Assembly: GCF_000154825.1 (NCBI RefSeq)
Contig: NZ_DS560019.1
Span: 868,001-932,000, forward strand
Length of the DNA: 64,000 bases
From: Anaerofustis stercorihominis DSM 17244
GTDB lineage: Bacteria > Bacillota > Clostridia > Eubacteriales > Anaerofustaceae
Direction of reading: 5' to 3'
This document shows, piece after piece, positions 13,065-22,014 of the stretch (positions within the stretch are counted from its first letter, which is position 1; each line of letters begins with the position of its first letter). The position numbers and the translations under genes are program-made. The notes under the pieces were generated by a model. That model was not told the DNA's origin. It saw nothing but the letters and a program-made list of their open reading frames with translations, and made no database searches.

Positions 13065-13151
13065 ATGACATTTCTTATAGTAATAAGCGGTTTGGCAGCT
13101 GTGGGTATGCTTATATACTACGCTGTTATACTTCTGGGAGGTAGAGAATAA
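13065..13151 (+). CDS. kdpF: KdpF-like small subunit of the Kdp potassium pump
   Basis: A 28-residue single-helix membrane peptide (TFLIVISGLAAVGMLIYYAV core, ending LLGGRE). In the Kdp complex KdpF is a lipid-like stabilising subunit of about 29 residues and precedes kdpA. The ribosome site AGGAGG is 8 bases upstream (13051-13056), the best in the operon, and the stop codon overlaps the kdpA ATG (TAATG). Sequence conservation of KdpF is weak, so the call rests on position, size and hydrophobicity. Confidence 0.8.
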   Translation: MTFLIVISGLAAVGMLIYYAVILLGGRE

Positions 13152-14959
13152 TGAGTAATTCAATTTTGCAATATGTGTTTTATTTGGTAATTTTAGTTGC
13201 TTTAGCCATTCCTTTAGGAAAATACATAAGCAAAGTAATGAATGGCGAAAAGGTATTTTTATCAAAAATAATGCTTCCCGTTGAAAATTTTATTTATAAA
13301 GTTTTAAAAATCAAAAAAGATGAAGAAATGGGATTTAAAAAATATGCAATAAGTGCATTGGCATTCAGTGCATTTGGATTGATTTTTCTATTTGTAATTC
13401 AATGTGCACAAAAATTCTTACCTTTAAATCCTGAAGGTATCAGCGGTATGAGCTGGGATCTATCATTTAATACAGCAGCAAGTTTCGTTACAAATACAAA
13501 CTGGCAAGCTTATAGCGGCGAATCTCAATTAAGTTATTTGTCACAGGCTTTAGGATTAACGGTACAAAACTTTACATCTGCTGCAACAGGTATGGCTGTT
13601 CTATACGCTTTGGTAAGGGGACTAATGAAGGTTAAAAGTAAAGGGCTAGGTAACTTTTTTGTGGATGTTACAAGAAGTATTTTATATGTATTGATCCCAC
13701 TTTCATTAGTAGTAACGATAGGTATTGCTTCACAAGGTGTTGTACAAACATTTAAAGGACATGAAGAAGTTAGCCTACTTGAACCTGTAGCCGTAACTAC
13801 CGAAGGTGAAATCATAGAGAATGCAAAAATTCAAGATAATAAAGTTTATGTTAATGGTGAACAGATAAAAGATGCTGAAGTGGTAACAAAACAAATCGTT
13901 CCTTTAGGTATGGCAGCGAGTCAGGTTGCAATAAAGCAGCTCGGAACAAACGGCGGTGGATATTATGGAGTTAACTCTGCACACCCACTCGAAAACCCAA
14001 CGCCTTTCTCTAATATGTTGGAAATGCTTTCCTTATTATTGATTCCTGTTGCATTGTGTTTTGCCTTTGGCAGAGATATTAAAAACAAAAAACAAGGGAT
14101 TGCTATATTTATGGCAATGTTTATATTATTAGTTGGTTTTATGGGTATAACTGCCTATAGCGAACATGCTTCTACGCCTGCATTTACTTCAAATCCTGCG
14201 GTAAGCACATCAGTTGATGGGCAAATCGGTAACATGGAAGGTAAGGAAACGAGGTTCGGTATTGCCTCATCTGTTACATGGGCTAGCTGGACAACAGCGG
14301 CATCAAATGGTTCCGTAAACTCTATGCATGACAGCTATACTCCTATAGGAGGAATGATACCAATGCTTCAAATGCAGCTAGGTGAAGTAGTATTTGGCGG
14401 TGTAGGATGTGGATTATACGGAATGCTAGGTTTTGCGATTTTAGCGGTATTCGTGGCAGGTCTTATGGTTGGAAGAACCCCCGAATTCTTGGGAAAGAAG
14501 ATAGAGCCTTTTGAAATGAGGATGGCAGTATTGGTATGTCTGGCTACTCCTATAGCTATACTTATAGGAAGCTTCCTGGCTACTATACTTCCGTCAACGG
14601 CTGATAGTTTGAATAATGCGGGAGCTCATGGGCTCAGTGAAGTGATTTATGCTTTCTCTTCTGCGGGCGGTAATAATGGTTCGGCATTTGCAGGATTTAA
14701 TGCAAATACACCATTCCTAAATGTTAATTTAGGTTTCGTAATGTTATTTGCTCGTTTCGTTCAAATGACAGCGTGTCTTGCCATAGCGGGAAGTCTTGCA
14801 AAGAAAAAGAAAATTGCTGTAACCGCAGGAACTCTATCAACATCAAATGCTATGTTTGTATTCTTACTTGTACTAATGGTACTAATAGTAGGGGCATTGA
14901 GTTTCTTCCCTGCATTGGCTCTCGGACCGATAGCAGAATTCTTTGAAATGATTATATAG
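13151..14959 (+). CDS. kdpA: Potassium-transporting ATPase, K+-channel subunit
   Basis: Channel-like subunit that selects K+ and passes it through the KdpFABC complex. The 602 residues form about ten membrane helices. The four selectivity-loop regions are visible: [12 protein letters not shown] near 115, [15 protein letters not shown] near 270, the [14 protein letters not shown] region near 383, and [11 protein letters not shown] near 504. It is about 45 residues longer than E. coli KdpA because of a hydrophilic extracellular insertion at roughly 200-255 ([12 protein letters not shown]), common in clostridial forms. It is translationally coupled to kdpF and 22 bases from kdpB. Confidence 0.97.
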
Positions 14960-14981: not shown

Positions 14982-17054
14982 ATGAAAAATAATGAATATA
15001 CAAGCGCTTTAAAAGATAAAGATATGGTGCTACGTGCCATAAAAGATTCTTTTATAAAACTTTCTCCGAAAATACAAGCTAAAAATCCGGTAATGCTTCT
15101 TGTATACATATCGGCTATACTTACAAGTATTTTGTTTGTAGCTGCTCTGTTTGGCATTCAAGATGCACCAAAGGGATATATCCTTGGAATAGCACTTATC
15201 CTTTGGTTCACGGTTTTATTTGCTAACTTTGCGGAAGCTATTGCGGAAGGCAGAGGGAAGGCCCAAGCCGATTCCCTCAGAGCCGCAAAGCAGGATGTAA
15301 AAGCATATAAAATTCCGTCAATAGATAAAAAAGAAGAAATAACAGAGATTTCTTCTGCACAACTTCAAAAAGACGATATTGTAATCGTAAAAGCAGGTGA
15401 ACAAATTCCAGCTGACGGAGAAGTCATAGATGGTGCTGCTTCTGTAGATGAAAGTGCCATAACAGGTGAATCTGCACCGGTTATAAGAGAAAGCGGCGGA
15501 GATAGAAGTGCCGTTACAGGCGGTACAACTGTTATATCTGACTGGATAGTAATGAAAGTAACAAGTGAAAAAGGTGAAAGTTTCCTGGATAAAATGATAG
15601 CAATGGTTGAGGGTGCTTCAAGAAAGAAGACACCAAATGAAATTGCTCTTGAAATATTTTTGGTAGCCTTATCAATCATATTTATATTGGTAACACTTGC
15701 TTTATATGGCTATTCTTTATTCTCAGCAAATCAGCAAGGTGTTGAAAACCCAACATCAATAACATCACTTATTGCGTTATTGGTTTGTTTGGCTCCAACT
15801 ACTATTGGTGCACTTCTTTCTGCAATAGGTATTGCGGGAATGAGCAGACTTAATAGTGCAAATGTGCTTGCAATGAGCGGAAGAGCAATTGAAGCGGCAG
15901 GTGATGTGGATATATTGATGCTTGATAAGACAGGAACTATTACTTTAGGAAACAGGAAAGCAGATGCTTTTATACCTGCCAGGGGAATAGATATAAAAGA
16001 ACTTGCAGATGCTGCACAGCTTTCGTCTTTAGCAGATGAAACACCGGAAGGCAGAAGTATTGTAATATTGGCAAAAGAAAAGTTTGGATTAAGAGGCAGA
16101 AATCTTGAAGAATTAAATATGGAATTCGTTCCTTTTACAGCTAAAACTCGTATGAGCGGTGTAAATATGGATGGAGTAGAAATCAGAAAAGGTGCTGCTG
16201 ATACCATCAAACAATATGTGGAAGAACAAGGCGGCAACTTTAATACCGAGATTGAAGAAGCTGTAAATAAAATAGCTAACCAAGGCGGAACGCCGCTTGT
16301 TGTAGCTAAAAATGATAAAGTATTGGGTGTTATCCACTTAAAAGATATTATAAAAAAAGGCGTAAAAGAAAAATTCGCCGACCTTAGAAAAATGGGCATT
16401 AAGACGATAATGATTACCGGCGATAATCCTCTTACTGCTGCTGCTATTGCTGCGGAAGCAGGTGTGGATGATTTCCTTGCAGAAGCTACCCCTGAAGGTA
16501 AACTTGATATGATAAGAGACTTTCAAAAGAAAGGTCATCTTGTTGCTATGACAGGGGACGGTACAAATGATGCTCCCGCACTTGCACAGGCAGATGTTGC
16601 GGTAGCAATGAATTCAGGTACTCAGGCTGCAAAAGAAGCAGGTAATATGGTGGATTTGGATTCCTCACCTACAAAATTAATTGATGTAGTAAGGATAGGT
16701 AAACAGTTATTAATGACAAGAGGAAGTCTTACAACATTTAGTATAGCAAATGATATTGCAAAATACTTTGCTATAATACCTGCTTTATTCATAGGATTAT
16801 ATCCGGGATTGCAGGCTCTTAATATAATGGGACTTCACAGTGCAAATGCAGCTGTGTTCTCAGCTATTATATATAATGCACTTGTTATTGTAGCTTTGAT
16901 ACCTCTTGCATTAAAGGGTGTTAAATACAGGGAAGTATCTTCCGGAAAACTTCTCAGCAGGAATTTACTTGTTTACGGACTCGGTGGTATTATTACTCCA
17001 TTTATCTTTATCAAGATAATAGATATGGTCATCGTTTCGTTAGGTTTGGTATAG
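14982..17054 (+). CDS. kdpB: Potassium-transporting P-type ATPase, catalytic subunit
   Basis: P-type ATPase that energises K+ uptake. The 690 residues carry the actuator motif ITGES near 163, the phosphorylation site [10 protein letters not shown] near 312, the nucleotide-binding KTRMSG and KGA in the N domain, and the hinge [16 protein letters not shown] near 525. The length matches the family (about 680). AGGAGA is 15 bases upstream, a rather long spacing. It lies between kdpA and kdpC and is needed with both for function. Confidence 0.98.
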
Positions 17055-17068
17055 GAGGAAAAGGATAA

Positions 17069-17665
17069 ATGAAAGGTACAATAAAAAGATCTTTAATGTT
17101 TGTAATAATCACTACTGTACTTTGCGGACTTATATATACTTTTGTTATGACTGGTATCTGCCAGGTTTTATTTCATGATAAAGCTAACGGAAGTATAATT
17201 GAAGTAAACGGAGTGAAATATGGAAGTGAATTTATGGCACAGCAGTATGAAGATGAAGATCATATGTGGGGTCGTGTTATGAACTTAAATATGACCACAT
17301 ATAAAGATAAAGACGGAAATACTCTTCTTTATTCCGGACCTTCAAATGTAACTCCCGCAAGTGGAGATTTTGAAAAAACTATAGAAGAAAGAGTAGAAAA
17401 AATAAAAGCAAATCATAAAGAAATGGGAAATACCCCTATTCCGCCTGATTTAGTAACAAATTCGGGAAGTGGTCTAGACCCTGAAATATCTCCGGAAGCA
17501 GCAGAATATCAAGTGAAGCGACTTGCTAAAAATAATGGTATGAATGAAACGCAGGTCAAAGCAATAATCGATAAATGTACCAAAGGACGTTTCTTAGGTA
17601 TATTTGGAGAAAAAAGAGTAAACGTATTAAAAGTTAACTTAATGTTAGATGGAATATTAAAGTAA
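17069..17665 (+). CDS. kdpC: Potassium-transporting ATPase, KdpC subunit
   Basis: Single-span subunit that supports ATP binding by KdpB. The 198 residues start with a membrane helix (about 8-31), followed by an extracellular domain. The family stretch with GSEF near residue 52 and FWGRxS-like HMWGRVMN near 69 are recognisable, as is the C-terminal PEISPEAAEYQVKRLA near 143 and GRFLGIFGEKRVNVLKVN near 176. The strong site GGAGGAAAAGG precedes the ATG by 8 bases. It is slightly divergent in the middle, but length and context are clear. Confidence 0.95.
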   Translation: MKGTIKRSLMFVIITTVLCGLIYTFVMTGICQVLFHDKANGSIIEVNGVKYGSEFMAQQYEDEDHMWGRVMNLNMTTYKDKDGNTLLYSGPSNVTPASGDFEKTIEERVEKIKANHKEMGNTPIPPDLVTNSGSGLDPEISPEAAEYQVKRLAKNNGMNETQVKAIIDKCTKGRFLGIFGEKRVNVLKVNLMLDGILK

Positions 17666-17678
17666 AAGGAGATTAGAT

Positions 17679-18050
17679 ATGCATAACAAAGTCATCGCAT
17701 ATAAGGAACAAGTAAATGTTTTAAAAGATATTAAACCAAATTTTGAAGAATCATTGTTAATGGTTTATATCTATATGCTTGGATGTGAACTTAGCATGAA
17801 TCCAAAGGTATATAAAATCGAAAAAGAACATTCTTTATGGGTATATTATGAAAAGGCTTGTTATGCAGTTGAAAGTTTCTTTGATGAATTTGGTATAAGT
17901 GCGGGGTTAATATCAAATAAATATCCTTTATCGGTTTATGGGATCATAAATGATAATGAGTCAGCTTCGCTTGTATCTTATTATGATTTAAGTGACAGTA
18001 AAGTTGTACTTATGAAAAAAATGTATCCGGTAAAGATTTTGATGAAATGA
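17679..18050 (+). CDS. Unknown protein encoded between kdpC and kdpDE (123 residues)
   Basis: I do not recognise the family. It is a soluble-looking alpha/beta protein of 123 residues without signal peptide or membrane helix. Features are an acidic-aromatic helix (EESLLMVYIYMLGCELSM) around 24-41, a charged central part with two YYEKACYAVE-like segments, and a hydrophobic C-terminus. AAGGAGA lies 8 bases before ATG, and the gap to kdpC is 13 bases. Its last four bases (ATGA) overlap the next gene, so the two are coupled. Position inside the kdp operon suggests a role in Kdp assembly or signalling, but this is inference. Confidence 0.75.
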   Translation: MHNKVIAYKEQVNVLKDIKPNFEESLLMVYIYMLGCELSMNPKVYKIEKEHSLWVYYEKACYAVESFFDEFGISAGLISNKYPLSVYGIINDNESASLVSYYDLSDSKVVLMKKMYPVKILMK

Positions 18051-18565
18051 CTGATATTTGTGTAAAAGTAGAAATAAATGATTTATTTTTACTGGATAGT
18101 TTTTATGAGTTGCTAAATAACCTTGATTATAGGAAAAGTTATATTGCAGTCGATAGAGCAAAGTTCTCGGAATATATGTTTAATAATATGGATGAAGAAG
18201 ATAAAAATACTTTTTATAAGTATATAAAATTAGATGATCCATATGAACATGAATCCTTTATTGATTCTCTTAGTATAGAACAAAGAAAAGAGTTGTGGAT
18301 ATTCTTTTTGAAAGATAAATTATCGCCCATTGATTTTGATTATGCTTTCGAGAGATATAAAGATGATACTATGTATTCTTTATTTGAATGGGAGCTTGCT
18401 CTTAGGCTTGCACTCAGTGATATGGATATAAGTATAAAATATGATGATAATAATTTTAAAGTAATTGATAAAAATAATAAAAGGCTATATTTTGATTATT
18501 CATCCGAAAATAATGCAGAGAAATTATTTTTAAAAATATTATTTCCGGTAAATACTTTTAAGTAA
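18047..18565 (+). CDS. Unknown protein encoded upstream of kdpD (172 residues)
   Basis: Not recognised. The 172 residues are acidic, rich in Asp, Glu, Tyr and Phe, and predicted soluble and mostly helical. No signal peptide, membrane span or Cys cluster is visible. A central DPYEHESFIDSLSIEQRKEL segment (about 64-83) is strongly charged, and the C-terminus (YDDNNFKVIDKNNKRLYFDY) looks like a beta hairpin. It starts at ATGA overlapping the preceding gene and is followed by the hairpin at 18570-18605 and kdpD. Codon use and base composition match its neighbours, so transfer is not suggested. A partner role with the preceding 123-residue protein is plausible. Confidence 0.75.
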   Translation: MTDICVKVEINDLFLLDSFYELLNNLDYRKSYIAVDRAKFSEYMFNNMDEEDKNTFYKYIKLDDPYEHESFIDSLSIEQRKELWIFFLKDKLSPIDFDYAFERYKDDTMYSLFEWELALRLALSDMDISIKYDDNNFKVIDKNNKRLYFDYSSENNAEKLFLKILFPVNTFK

Positions 18566-18569
18566 TATT

Positions 18570-18605
18570 AAATAGTGTTAATATTTGAATATATTAACAC
18601 TGTTT
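18570..18605 (+). repeat. Long inverted repeat between the unknown kdp-linked genes and kdpD
   Basis: AGTGTTAATAT (18574-18584) and ATATTAACACT (18591-18601) are perfect 11-base arms around TTGAAT; flanking TAAA/TTTA extends the pairing with one mismatch. It sits between the upstream stop and the kdpD ribosome site (AGGAG at 18614) and lacks a T-run. It could be a partial attenuator, an RNA-processing site or an operator dyad. Confidence 0.7.
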
Positions 18606-18623
18606 ACTTTGTTAGGAGAAATT

Positions 18624-21314
18624 ATGAGACCTGATCCGAATAAAATTTTAGAGAAAATCAAGACAGAAAATATAAATAACAATTACGGTAAACTAAAGAT
18701 ATTTTTTGGCTATGCTGCTGGAGTTGGTAAAACATATTCAATGCTTGAGGCTGCTCATAAAGCAATCGATAATGGGAAAGATGTCATTATTGGATATATT
18801 GAGCATCATGCTCGTCCCGAAACCATGGCTCTTACAAATGGTATAGAACATTTAGATAATAAAGAAACAAAGTATAATGGCATTGTTCTTAAAGAGTTTG
18901 ATTTGGATGCTGCTCTTAAAAGAAATCCTGAGATAATACTTGTAGATGAGCTTGCCCATACCAATGCTGAAGGTTCCAGACATGTAAAGAGATATCAGGA
19001 TATTGAAGAATTACTGAAAGCAGGAATAAATGTATATACCACTGTAAATGTTCAGCATATCGAAAGTCTAAATGATATAGTTGCTTCGATTACAGGAGTA
19101 GAAGTAAGGGAAAGGATACCGGACAGAATATTTGACCTTGCTTATCAGGTGGAGCTTGTTGATATTGAGCCTGCGGACCTAATAGACAGGCTCAATAAAG
19201 GCAAGATTTACAGAGAGGACAGAGCTGTTACCGCACTGGATAATTTCTTTACCGTAGATAACCTTACCGCACTTAGAGAAATTGCTTTAAGGAGATGTGC
19301 GGATAGGGTAAATAAAATATCGGAAAAGATAAAAAATCCTTTAAAAAAGGCTTCTCCTGTCAATGAACATATTCTAATCTGTTTATCTTCGTCTCCAAGC
19401 AATAAAAAAGTAATCAGAACTGCCGCTCGTATGGCAGATGCTTTTAAAGGAACATTTACCGCACTATATGTAGAGACTTCCGAAGCAAAAGAAATAAATA
19501 AGGAAGATGAAAAAAGATTAAACGAAAATTTTAAGTTGGCAGAACAGCTTGGTGCAAATATAACAACAGTATATGGAGATGATATAGTTTTTCAGATTGC
19601 AGAGTTTGCAAGGCTGTCAAATGTTTCTAAAATAATTATTGGAAGAAGCGGGAATAAAAAAGGATTTTTTTCTTCTAATACTTCTTTTGCAAATAGGTTA
19701 TCTTCCATATATCCTAATTTGGATATTTATATTATTCCCGACAGTGATATAAAGAGCAAAAGAAATGTAAAAAATATCATTGATAAAAATCAAGTAAATA
19801 TTAGTTTCATTGATTCATTTAAGTCTATTATTATTCTGCTATTATGTACTTTACTTGGTTTTATTTTCTATACACTTGGTTTTAGTGAAGCAAATATAAT
19901 AACGGTATATATTTTGGGTGTACTTGGAACTGCAGTAATAACTCCTAAGAAAATATATCCAATCGTTTCTTCTTTTTTTAGTGTTTTGATATTTAATTTC
20001 TTTTTTACTGTACCGAGATTTACTTTGGATGCATACGACAAAGGATATCCGGTAACCTTTTTAATAATGTTCATAGCAGCATTTGTTACGGGAACACTTA
20101 CTTCCAGAATAAAAGAGCAAGCAAAGCAGTCGGTAAGAGTTGCATATAGGACAACAGTTCTTCTTGAAACAAACCAAAAATTACAGCAAGTAAAGAGTAA
20201 AGAAGAAATAATTGAGGAAACGGGAAAACAGATACTTAAGTTGTTTGATAAAACTACTATTATATATTTATCATTATATGATAGATTATTGGAACCTCAA
20301 ATATTTATGGCGGATAAAAATGAAGATATAAGGGAATATATAAATGCCAATGAACAAGCTGTTGCTCTCTGGGTATATAAAAATAACAAACATGCCGGAG
20401 CTTCCACCAATACTCTGAACGGAGCAAAATGTTATTATTTGTCCATAAGAGGTAAAGAAGGGATTTATGGTGTCGTAGGTGTTAAAATAGATAAAAATGA
20501 GGAATTTAGTATGTTTGACAGAAGCCTTCTAATTTCAATGGTGAATGAATGCGGTGCTATACTTGAAAACAATTATCTGGAAGAAAAGAATGAAAAAGCA
20601 TTATTGGAAGCAAAGCAGGAAAAACTTAGAGCTAACTTGTTACGCTCAATATCACATGATTTAAGGACACCGCTTACAAGCATATCAGGAAATGCCTCGG
20701 TATTATTAAAAGATTTTGACAGTCTCGATAATAATAAGAAGCATGAACTATACGAAGATATGTATGATGATTCCATGTGGCTTATAAACCTTGTAGAAAA
20801 CCTTCTTTCGGTTACTAGGATTGAAGATGGAAGCATGAATTTGAATATAGAGCCTGAACTTTTGAGTGAAGTCATAGGTGAAGCACTTAAACATATCAAT
20901 AGGAAAAGTGTTGAGCATAATATAAAAGTAGAAAATAATGATGAATTAATAATGGCAAAAATGGATTCCAGACTTATCATGCAGGTTATAATAAATATCG
21001 TAGACAATGCAATAAAATATACTCCTGAAGGTTCGGATATTACAATAAAGGTTAATAAAAAAAATGGTTACGTTTATACCAGTATAATTGATAATGGGAA
21101 GGGAATAAGTGATGAAGGAAAGAAAAATTTATTTAAAATGTTTTATACAGGTGGAAATATAGCAGACAGCAGAAGAGGTTTGGGACTTGGATTATATCTT
21201 TGTAAAACAATAGTAAATGCACACGGCGGAGAACTGATGGTTAAAGATAATACTCCGAAGGGTACTATATTTACATTTTCATTAAAAGCACAGGAGGTCA
21301 CATTACATGAATAG
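18624..21314 (+). CDS. kdpD: Sensor histidine kinase KdpD
   Basis: Membrane kinase that senses potassium limitation and phosphorylates KdpE. The 896 residues match full-length KdpD. In order: N-terminal KdpD domain with Walker A GYAAGVGKT (near 28-36), a universal-stress-protein domain (about 248-370), four clustered membrane helices (about 395-495), a GAF-like region, HisKA with SISHDLRTPLTS near 675, and HATPase motifs NIVDNAIKY and GLGLGLYLC. The USP domain contains SSS, then exactly 20 residues, then FTALY (residues 255-282), the pattern linked to c-di-AMP binding. ATG 18624 is preceded by TAGGAG; the open frame extends 39 bases upstream without a better site. It overlaps kdpE by 8 bases. 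Confidence 0.96.
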   Translation: MRPDPNKILEKIKTENINNNYGKLKIFFGYAAGVGKTYSMLEAAHKAIDNGKDVIIGYIEHHARPETMALTNGIEHLDNKETKYNGIVLKEFDLDAALKRNPEIILVDELAHTNAEGSRHVKRYQDIEELLKAGINVYTTVNVQHIESLNDIVASITGVEVRERIPDRIFDLAYQVELVDIEPADLIDRLNKGKIYREDRAVTALDNFFTVDNLTALREIALRRCADRVNKISEKIKNPLKKASPVNEHILICLSSSPSNKKVIRTAARMADAFKGTFTALYVETSEAKEINKEDEKRLNENFKLAEQLGANITTVYGDDIVFQIAEFARLSNVSKIIIGRSGNKKGFFSSNTSFANRLSSIYPNLDIYIIPDSDIKSKRNVKNIIDKNQVNISFIDSFKSIIILLLCTLLGFIFYTLGFSEANIITVYILGVLGTAVITPKKIYPIVSSFFSVLIFNFFFTVPRFTLDAYDKGYPVTFLIMFIAAFVTGTLTSRIKEQAKQSVRVAYRTTVLLETNQKLQQVKSKEEIIEETGKQILKLFDKTTIIYLSLYDRLLEPQIFMADKNEDIREYINANEQAVALWVYKNNKHAGASTNTLNGAKCYYLSIRGKEGIYGVVGVKIDKNEEFSMFDRSLLISMVNECGAILENNYLEEKNEKALLEAKQEKLRANLLRSISHDLRTPLTSISGNASVLLKDFDSLDNNKKHELYEDMYDDSMWLINLVENLLSVTRIEDGSMNLNIEPELLSEVIGEALKHINRKSVEHNIKVENNDELIMAKMDSRLIMQVIINIVDNAIKYTPEGSDITIKVNKKNGYVYTSIIDNGKGISDEGKKNLFKMFYTGGNIADSRRGLGLGLYLCKTIVNAHGGELMVKDNTPKGTIFTFSLKAQEVTLHE

Positions 21315-22014
21315 ATTAATATTAGTTGTGGAAGATGATAATGCAGTAAAAAACTTAATATCTACTACTTTAGAAAGTAAAGAATATAAATTTCATACTG
21401 CCAAAAACGGCAAACAGGCGCTGGATGAGGCAATCAGCAGAAAGCCTGATGTTATACTATTAGATTTGGGACTTCCTGATATGGATGGAGTTGATATAAT
21501 AAAAAAAATCAGAGGTTGGTCTAATATGCCCATAATTGTAGTTAGTGCAAGGAGTGAGGATAAAGATAAAATAGATGCTTTGGATGCGGGTGCGGATGAT
21601 TATCTAACTAAACCTTTCAGCGTGGATGAACTATTAGCAAGATTAAGGGTTGCATTTAGAAGACTTGATTATCAAAATAGTAATTATAATAAGAATGAAA
21701 GTCCTATATTTATTAATGGAGGACTTAAAATAGATTATGAAAGCGGATGTGTTTTTGTAGATGATAAAGAAGTGCATTTAACTCCTAATGAATATAAGTT
21801 GATTTGTCTATTAAGTAAAAATGTTGGTAAGGTACTTACTCACAAATATATTTTAAATGAAATATGGGGTACGGCTTTTGACAGTGACGTTGCTTCCCTA
21901 AGAGTATATATGGCAACTCTTAGAAAAAAGATAGAAAATGACAGTGAACATCCTATTTATATACAAACACATATTGGTGTTGGATATAGAATGCTTAGGA
22001 TAGAAAATAAATAA
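21307..22014 (+). CDS. kdpE: Response regulator KdpE
   Basis: OmpR-family regulator, partner of KdpD. The 235 residues have a receiver domain with acidic pair EDD near 9, phospho-acceptor Asp in ILLDLGLPDMDG near 54 and KPF near 106, then a winged-helix DNA-binding domain (about 135-232, TPNEYKLICLL and GVGYRM). It overlaps the kdpD end by 8 bases and is followed by a terminator. Activating kdpFABC under low potassium is expected from the family. Confidence 0.96.
   Translation: MNRLILVVEDDNAVKNLISTTLESKEYKFHTAKNGKQALDEAISRKPDVILLDLGLPDMDGVDIIKKIRGWSNMPIIVVSARSEDKDKIDALDAGADDYLTKPFSVDELLARLRVAFRRLDYQNSNYNKNESPIFINGGLKIDYESGCVFVDDKEVHLTPNEYKLICLLSKNVGKVLTHKYILNEIWGTAFDSDVASLRVYMATLRKKIENDSEHPIYIQTHIGVGYRMLRIENK

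Follow-up and report, generated by a model that had tools for sequence, protein, structure and literature searches.

Between kdpC and kdpD of the kdp operon of Anaerofustis stercorihominis DSM 17244 lies one gene of ~295 residues, here called gene X, which is split by a one-base frameshift and had been described in the initial annotation as two unknown genes. X belongs to a real but unnamed protein family, which is without a Pfam or NCBIfam model and adjoins kdp genes only, in some Clostridia, and it probably forms an additional part of the KdpD/KdpE potassium sensor. In our main reading, to which we assign a probability of about one half, X is an accessory protein of KdpDE, cytoplasmic and of pseudo-GHKL type, and is inactivated or dependent on slippage in the strain of the window (the whole stretch of 64,000 nucleotides that was analysed). 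KdpDE is a textbook two-component system of which the inputs are still being worked out; K+, c-di-AMP and UspC have been joined since 2024 by a serine-kinase role on KdpB. Such a system would gain a testable layer of control in anaerobic Clostridia from a dedicated partner that is found in one KdpD clade only and possibly has a pseudo-ATPase fold.

One gene split at an A-run

All features of the operon lie on the forward strand of the window. A kdpF-like ORF of 28 codons (13065-13151), read by eye from the sequence as MTFLIVISGLAAVGMLIYYAVILLGGRE, precedes kdpA (13151-14959), kdpB (14982-17054), with a TGES motif in the 159-164 region, the site of the regulatory serine, and kdpC (17069-17665; Pfam KdpC, E = 1.4e-61). 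Gene X (17679-18565) follows, and then kdpD (18624-21314), with KdpD/Walker A, Usp, DUF4118, GAF, HisKA and HATPase domains, and kdpE (21307-22014). The two ORFs first reported in place of X, of 123 aa (17679-18050) and 172 aa (18047-18565), are present together with their ATGA overlap, and it was right that they fall in no recognized family, with neither fragment giving anything above threshold in Pfam and NCBIfam scans. However, the same stretch is one uninterrupted gene of 295 codons, also between kdpC and kdpD, in a congener, A. stercorihominis DSM 28733 (contig NZ_JANJZK010000003.1), the only one of 61 related genomes searched that gave good matches to both fragments, there in one open frame.

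In the DNA alignment of window and congener, the sole indel within X is in an A-run at 18015-18021, with seven A in the window and eight in the congener. This run is the point at which the frame of the ancestral single gene is lost: the first ORF consists of 114 in-frame codons from the N-terminal part of X and 9 out-of-frame codons, which read MYPVKILMK before a stop, and the second ORF is the C-terminal part, whose ATG 'start' is an internal methionine codon of X. A strong ribosome site had been claimed for both ORFs, and it exists for the first (AAAGGAGATTAGATATG) but not for the second, where CCGGTAAAGATTTTGATGAA stands before the start and has no Shine-Dalgarno core. The argument for translational coupling fails as well, because the ATGA overlap is a by-product of the frameshift. 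Moreover, a distant and intact homologue in another genome (G445) is co-linear with the congener protein along its full length of 295 residues (24% identity, E = 9e-37).

Between window and congener, the halves of X gave dN/dS of 0.16 and 0.18, and both are thus under purifying selection. Constraint on both sides of the break implies that the break is recent, is an error, or is bypassed by slippage; if the run is read correctly, X in the window strain is either lost or produced only via slippage on the A-run. A homopolymer error in sequencing or assembly, with X intact in the strain, is a less probable but still sizeable alternative, which concerns the split only and would fit any role of X. 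One base of an A-run is the only difference and both halves remain constrained, as such an error would have it; on the other hand, the ~56 kb that align with the congener have no other uncompensated indel well within a conserved ORF, length was kept in 58 of the 63 A/T runs of 7 or more, and X is broken in other genomes as well. The single uncompensated indel and the kept runs argue against an assembly that is error-prone in general, rather than against an error at this one site. Two separate, translationally coupled genes can practically be discarded in spite of the ATGA overlap and the ribosome site of the first ORF, given the single gene in the congener, the intact homologues of other genera, the second ORF without a ribosome site and the differing breakpoints of other split copies. 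A conserved two-product design based on programmed frameshifting was also considered and was dropped, since the position of the break differs among the split copies. The case illustrates how a frameshift can mimic a tidy two-gene cassette.

An A+U-rich hairpin of 16 bp (18569-18606) lies between X and kdpD and is kept in the congener according to the alignment. The RNA fold of 18560-18625 has a free energy of -17.4 kcal/mol (z = -4.5), and Rfam searches over the kdp operon gave no RNA family and no match for this hairpin. It is a possible attenuator or RNA-processing site, and could hold expression of kdpDE below that of kdpABC.

Distribution and gene order of the X family

A scan of named genomes with the single X protein gave the congener only; the first remote relatives came from a scan of the kdpC neighbourhood in other Clostridia, and a family profile then picked out ten members in one family, of which 148 genomes were searched. 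In total, 14 genomes from three Clostridia families were found to carry X, at 13 distinct loci, since two near-identical loci (L069 in G285 and L068 in G302) were counted as one. These two kdp loci lie at contig ends, in genomes that are placed in separate families, and reflect either recent transfer or contamination.

The initial annotation had proposed a search beside kdp in other Clostridia, and there the single-gene homologue borders on a kdp gene in 14/14 genomes, all of which have KdpA and KdpD; no copy away from kdp, which the initial annotation would have taken as a refutation, was found in the genomes searched. Gene order varies: ABC-X-DE in the two Anaerofustis genomes, DE-ABC-X in eight genomes, ABCDE-X in G1218, ABC-X with kdpD ~20 kb off in G1146, and X-DE with kdpA on another contig in G1155 and G1255, so that X adjoins kdpC in 11 of the 14. 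In a third Anaerofustis genome, X, KdpC, KdpA and KdpD were all not found, and many kdp loci in Clostridia are without X. Intact copies of 291-296 codons occur in several genera, down to ~20% identity and with conserved motifs. The congener protein and 16 family rows gave nothing above threshold in Pfam, PDB sequence searches with two family profiles gave no credible match, and no relative was found in viral contigs and plasmids. As a separate observation on gene order, two kdp loci from two genomes of one family (L043 and L044) have the order kdpC-kdpE-kdpD, in which the response regulator comes ahead of the kinase.

That kdp operons normally go from kdpC straight to kdpD, as the initial annotation had stated, is a simplification. 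For C. acetobutylicum, PMC5401905, citing Treuner-Lange 1997, gives the order kdpZYABCXDE, and small genes recur in this gap in its family: in the genome taken as C. acetobutylicum the slot holds a protein of 114 residues with an N-terminal hydrophobic segment, and KdpX-type proteins of 113-138 residues with such a segment occupy it in eight other genomes of the family. X of the window and the congener sits in the same kdpC-kdpD slot of a Clostridia kdp operon, but other members of the X family sit elsewhere around kdp, and X is a protein of ~295 residues that starts with no hydrophobic segment, whereas KdpX is short and membrane-anchored. No homology between X and the C. acetobutylicum-type KdpX was detected by BLAST, and hhalign gave a probability of 0.1% (E = 0.7). 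Because the slot protein in the C. acetobutylicum family is unrelated to X, X is, on sequence comparison, not KdpX but a positional analogue only. The KdpX-type family itself (loci L085-L087, L094, L099, L100, L103, L104 and L051) is apparently conserved and little studied.

Divergence and loss of X relative to its kdp neighbours

Across 12 genomes, and without control for the species tree, identity of X correlated with that of KdpD at r = 0.92 and of KdpE at 0.85, versus 0.69-0.73 for KdpA, B and C. In the same genomes, likewise uncontrolled for the species tree, the partial rank correlation of X with KdpD was ~0.77 given KdpA, B or C, and those of X with KdpA, B and C given KdpD were 0.04, 0.20 and -0.12. 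The nearest matches of Anaerofustis X, KdpD and KdpE all come from G1155, in which kdpABC is of another lineage than that of Anaerofustis and lies on another contig than X-kdpD-kdpE; X-kdpD-kdpE is apart from kdpABC in G1255 too. In the KdpD tree, all KdpDs of X-bearing loci fall in one clade (support 100/99), along with 9 X-negative rows, and the presence of X changes 4 times on the tree versus 12.1 times in shuffles, with 0 of 500 shuffles as low. The X-negative kdp loci of this clade gave no X with the family HMM and all filters off. Co-divergence and clustering on the KdpD tree thus place X nearer to the sensor than to the pump. Hence, of the roles first suggested for a kdp-dedicated protein, K+ sensing and KdpD control are supported in outline, and assembly of the pump is disfavoured because X diverges with KdpD rather than with KdpABC.

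X could instead be a factor for assembly, stability or activity of the KdpFABC pump, with the link to KdpDE due to shared regulation only. Its position directly 3' of kdpC in 11 of the 14 genomes would suit such a factor, as would a fold match in the chaperone class (see below) and the locus in G1146, where X sits with kdpABC and kdpD is ~20 kb away, which also speaks against a link to the sensor. However, divergence of X does not track KdpA, B and C once KdpD is accounted for, X lies beside kdpDE and away from kdpABC in G1155 and G1255, and Anaerofustis X is closest to G1155 X in spite of the different kdpABC lineage there. We thus regard a pump factor as unlikely and retain X as a probable part of the sensor.

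X is also broken in 4 of the 13 loci, by the A-run in the window, by a frameshift common to G302 and G285, by an in-frame TGA in G1150 and by a frameshift in G1156. By comparison, kdpA-E are full-length in all 13 loci (0 of 65 genes broken; Fisher p = 5e-4); errors in draft assemblies may inflate the count for X, although G302 and G285 agree. X is therefore lost more readily than its kdp neighbours, which fits a modulator, and losses as frequent as these suggest a brake or trimmer that can be dispensed with. Alternatively, X may be disrupted repeatedly because it is of little importance. In a separate rival reading, X would be a decaying, nearly neutral gene that hitch-hikes in kdp loci, and the broken copies and the numerous kdp loci without X would then be expected. 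This we consider improbable in view of dN/dS of ~0.17 between the congeners, the intact copies kept over several genera with their motifs, and the fact that X has kept its place beside kdp while the gene order changed.

Predicted fold and proposed role of X

The structure of X was predicted by AlphaFold2 from 16 family rows (pLDDT 89.5, pTM 0.83), in place of an unusable model from 6 rows (pLDDT 53). In the 16-row model, residues 3-153 match GHKL domains of the Hsp90 class (Foldseek E = 1.8e-4, to TRAP1). VIA gave Z = 8.9 against the HtpG N-domain (rmsd 3.5 over 137 residues), a score only modestly above the 7-8 that is typical of this tool for models without a clear match; all 50 matches listed are Hsp90-class GHKL, and RIIA and Hsp90-like proteins are prominent among viral models that match the fold. 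X nevertheless differs from Hsp90 and HtpG: neither the N-box Asn nor DxGxG is among the conserved columns of the X family alignment, X is half the size of Hsp90 and has no detectable sequence relation to it, and hhalign gave no relation of X to the HATPase domains of KdpD (9 rows) or to a single HtpG sequence. The N-terminal half is thus a probable pseudo-GHKL fold of Hsp90 type without the ATP-binding residues, and, judged from this model, probably serves as a non-catalytic binding module. The C-terminal half carries the motifs LW..FL, EWEL and LKILFP.

In E. coli, KdpD phosphorylates KdpE and, via an N-terminal serine kinase, also KdpB (PMC11018627), and UspC scaffolds KdpD/KdpE (PMC2714519); KdpD of Firmicutes is able to bind c-di-AMP (PMC8214093). 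KdpD of the window has an intact N-terminal Walker A (GYAAGVGKT) and a Usp domain in agreement with the c-di-AMP-binding motif in the literature (CLSSSPSN ... FTALY), and KdpB retains the target-serine region. In the mechanism that we propose, X would bind KdpD (or KdpE) in the cytoplasm, and bound X would tune or trim the output of its partner, in a manner comparable to the scaffolding of KdpD/KdpE by UspC in E. coli; what is tuned may be the balance of kinase and phosphatase on KdpE or the inhibition of KdpB by the serine kinase. Both the binding and the direction of its effect are our inference. By analogy, UspC offers a soluble accessory protein that acts on KdpD/KdpE in the role proposed for X, but it is a universal stress protein, whereas the gene of X is part of the kdp locus and the predicted fold of X is a different one.

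A bolder version, and in our estimate a long shot, would make X a third, previously undescribed component of KdpDE, in which an Hsp90-like pseudo-GHKL protein gates the kinase, phosphatase or serine-kinase output of KdpD and is switched on and off in Anaerofustis by changes of A-run length, as a contingency or slippage switch, giving variants of the K+ response in a gut population.

Two further observations concern KdpD in G1146. A KdpD frame at locus L150 (G1146:C3:1224000-1238000) has ~1180 residues, some 280 above the usual, and a second match to the KdpD domain lies ~117 kb beyond this KdpD, in an open frame of >1800 codons.
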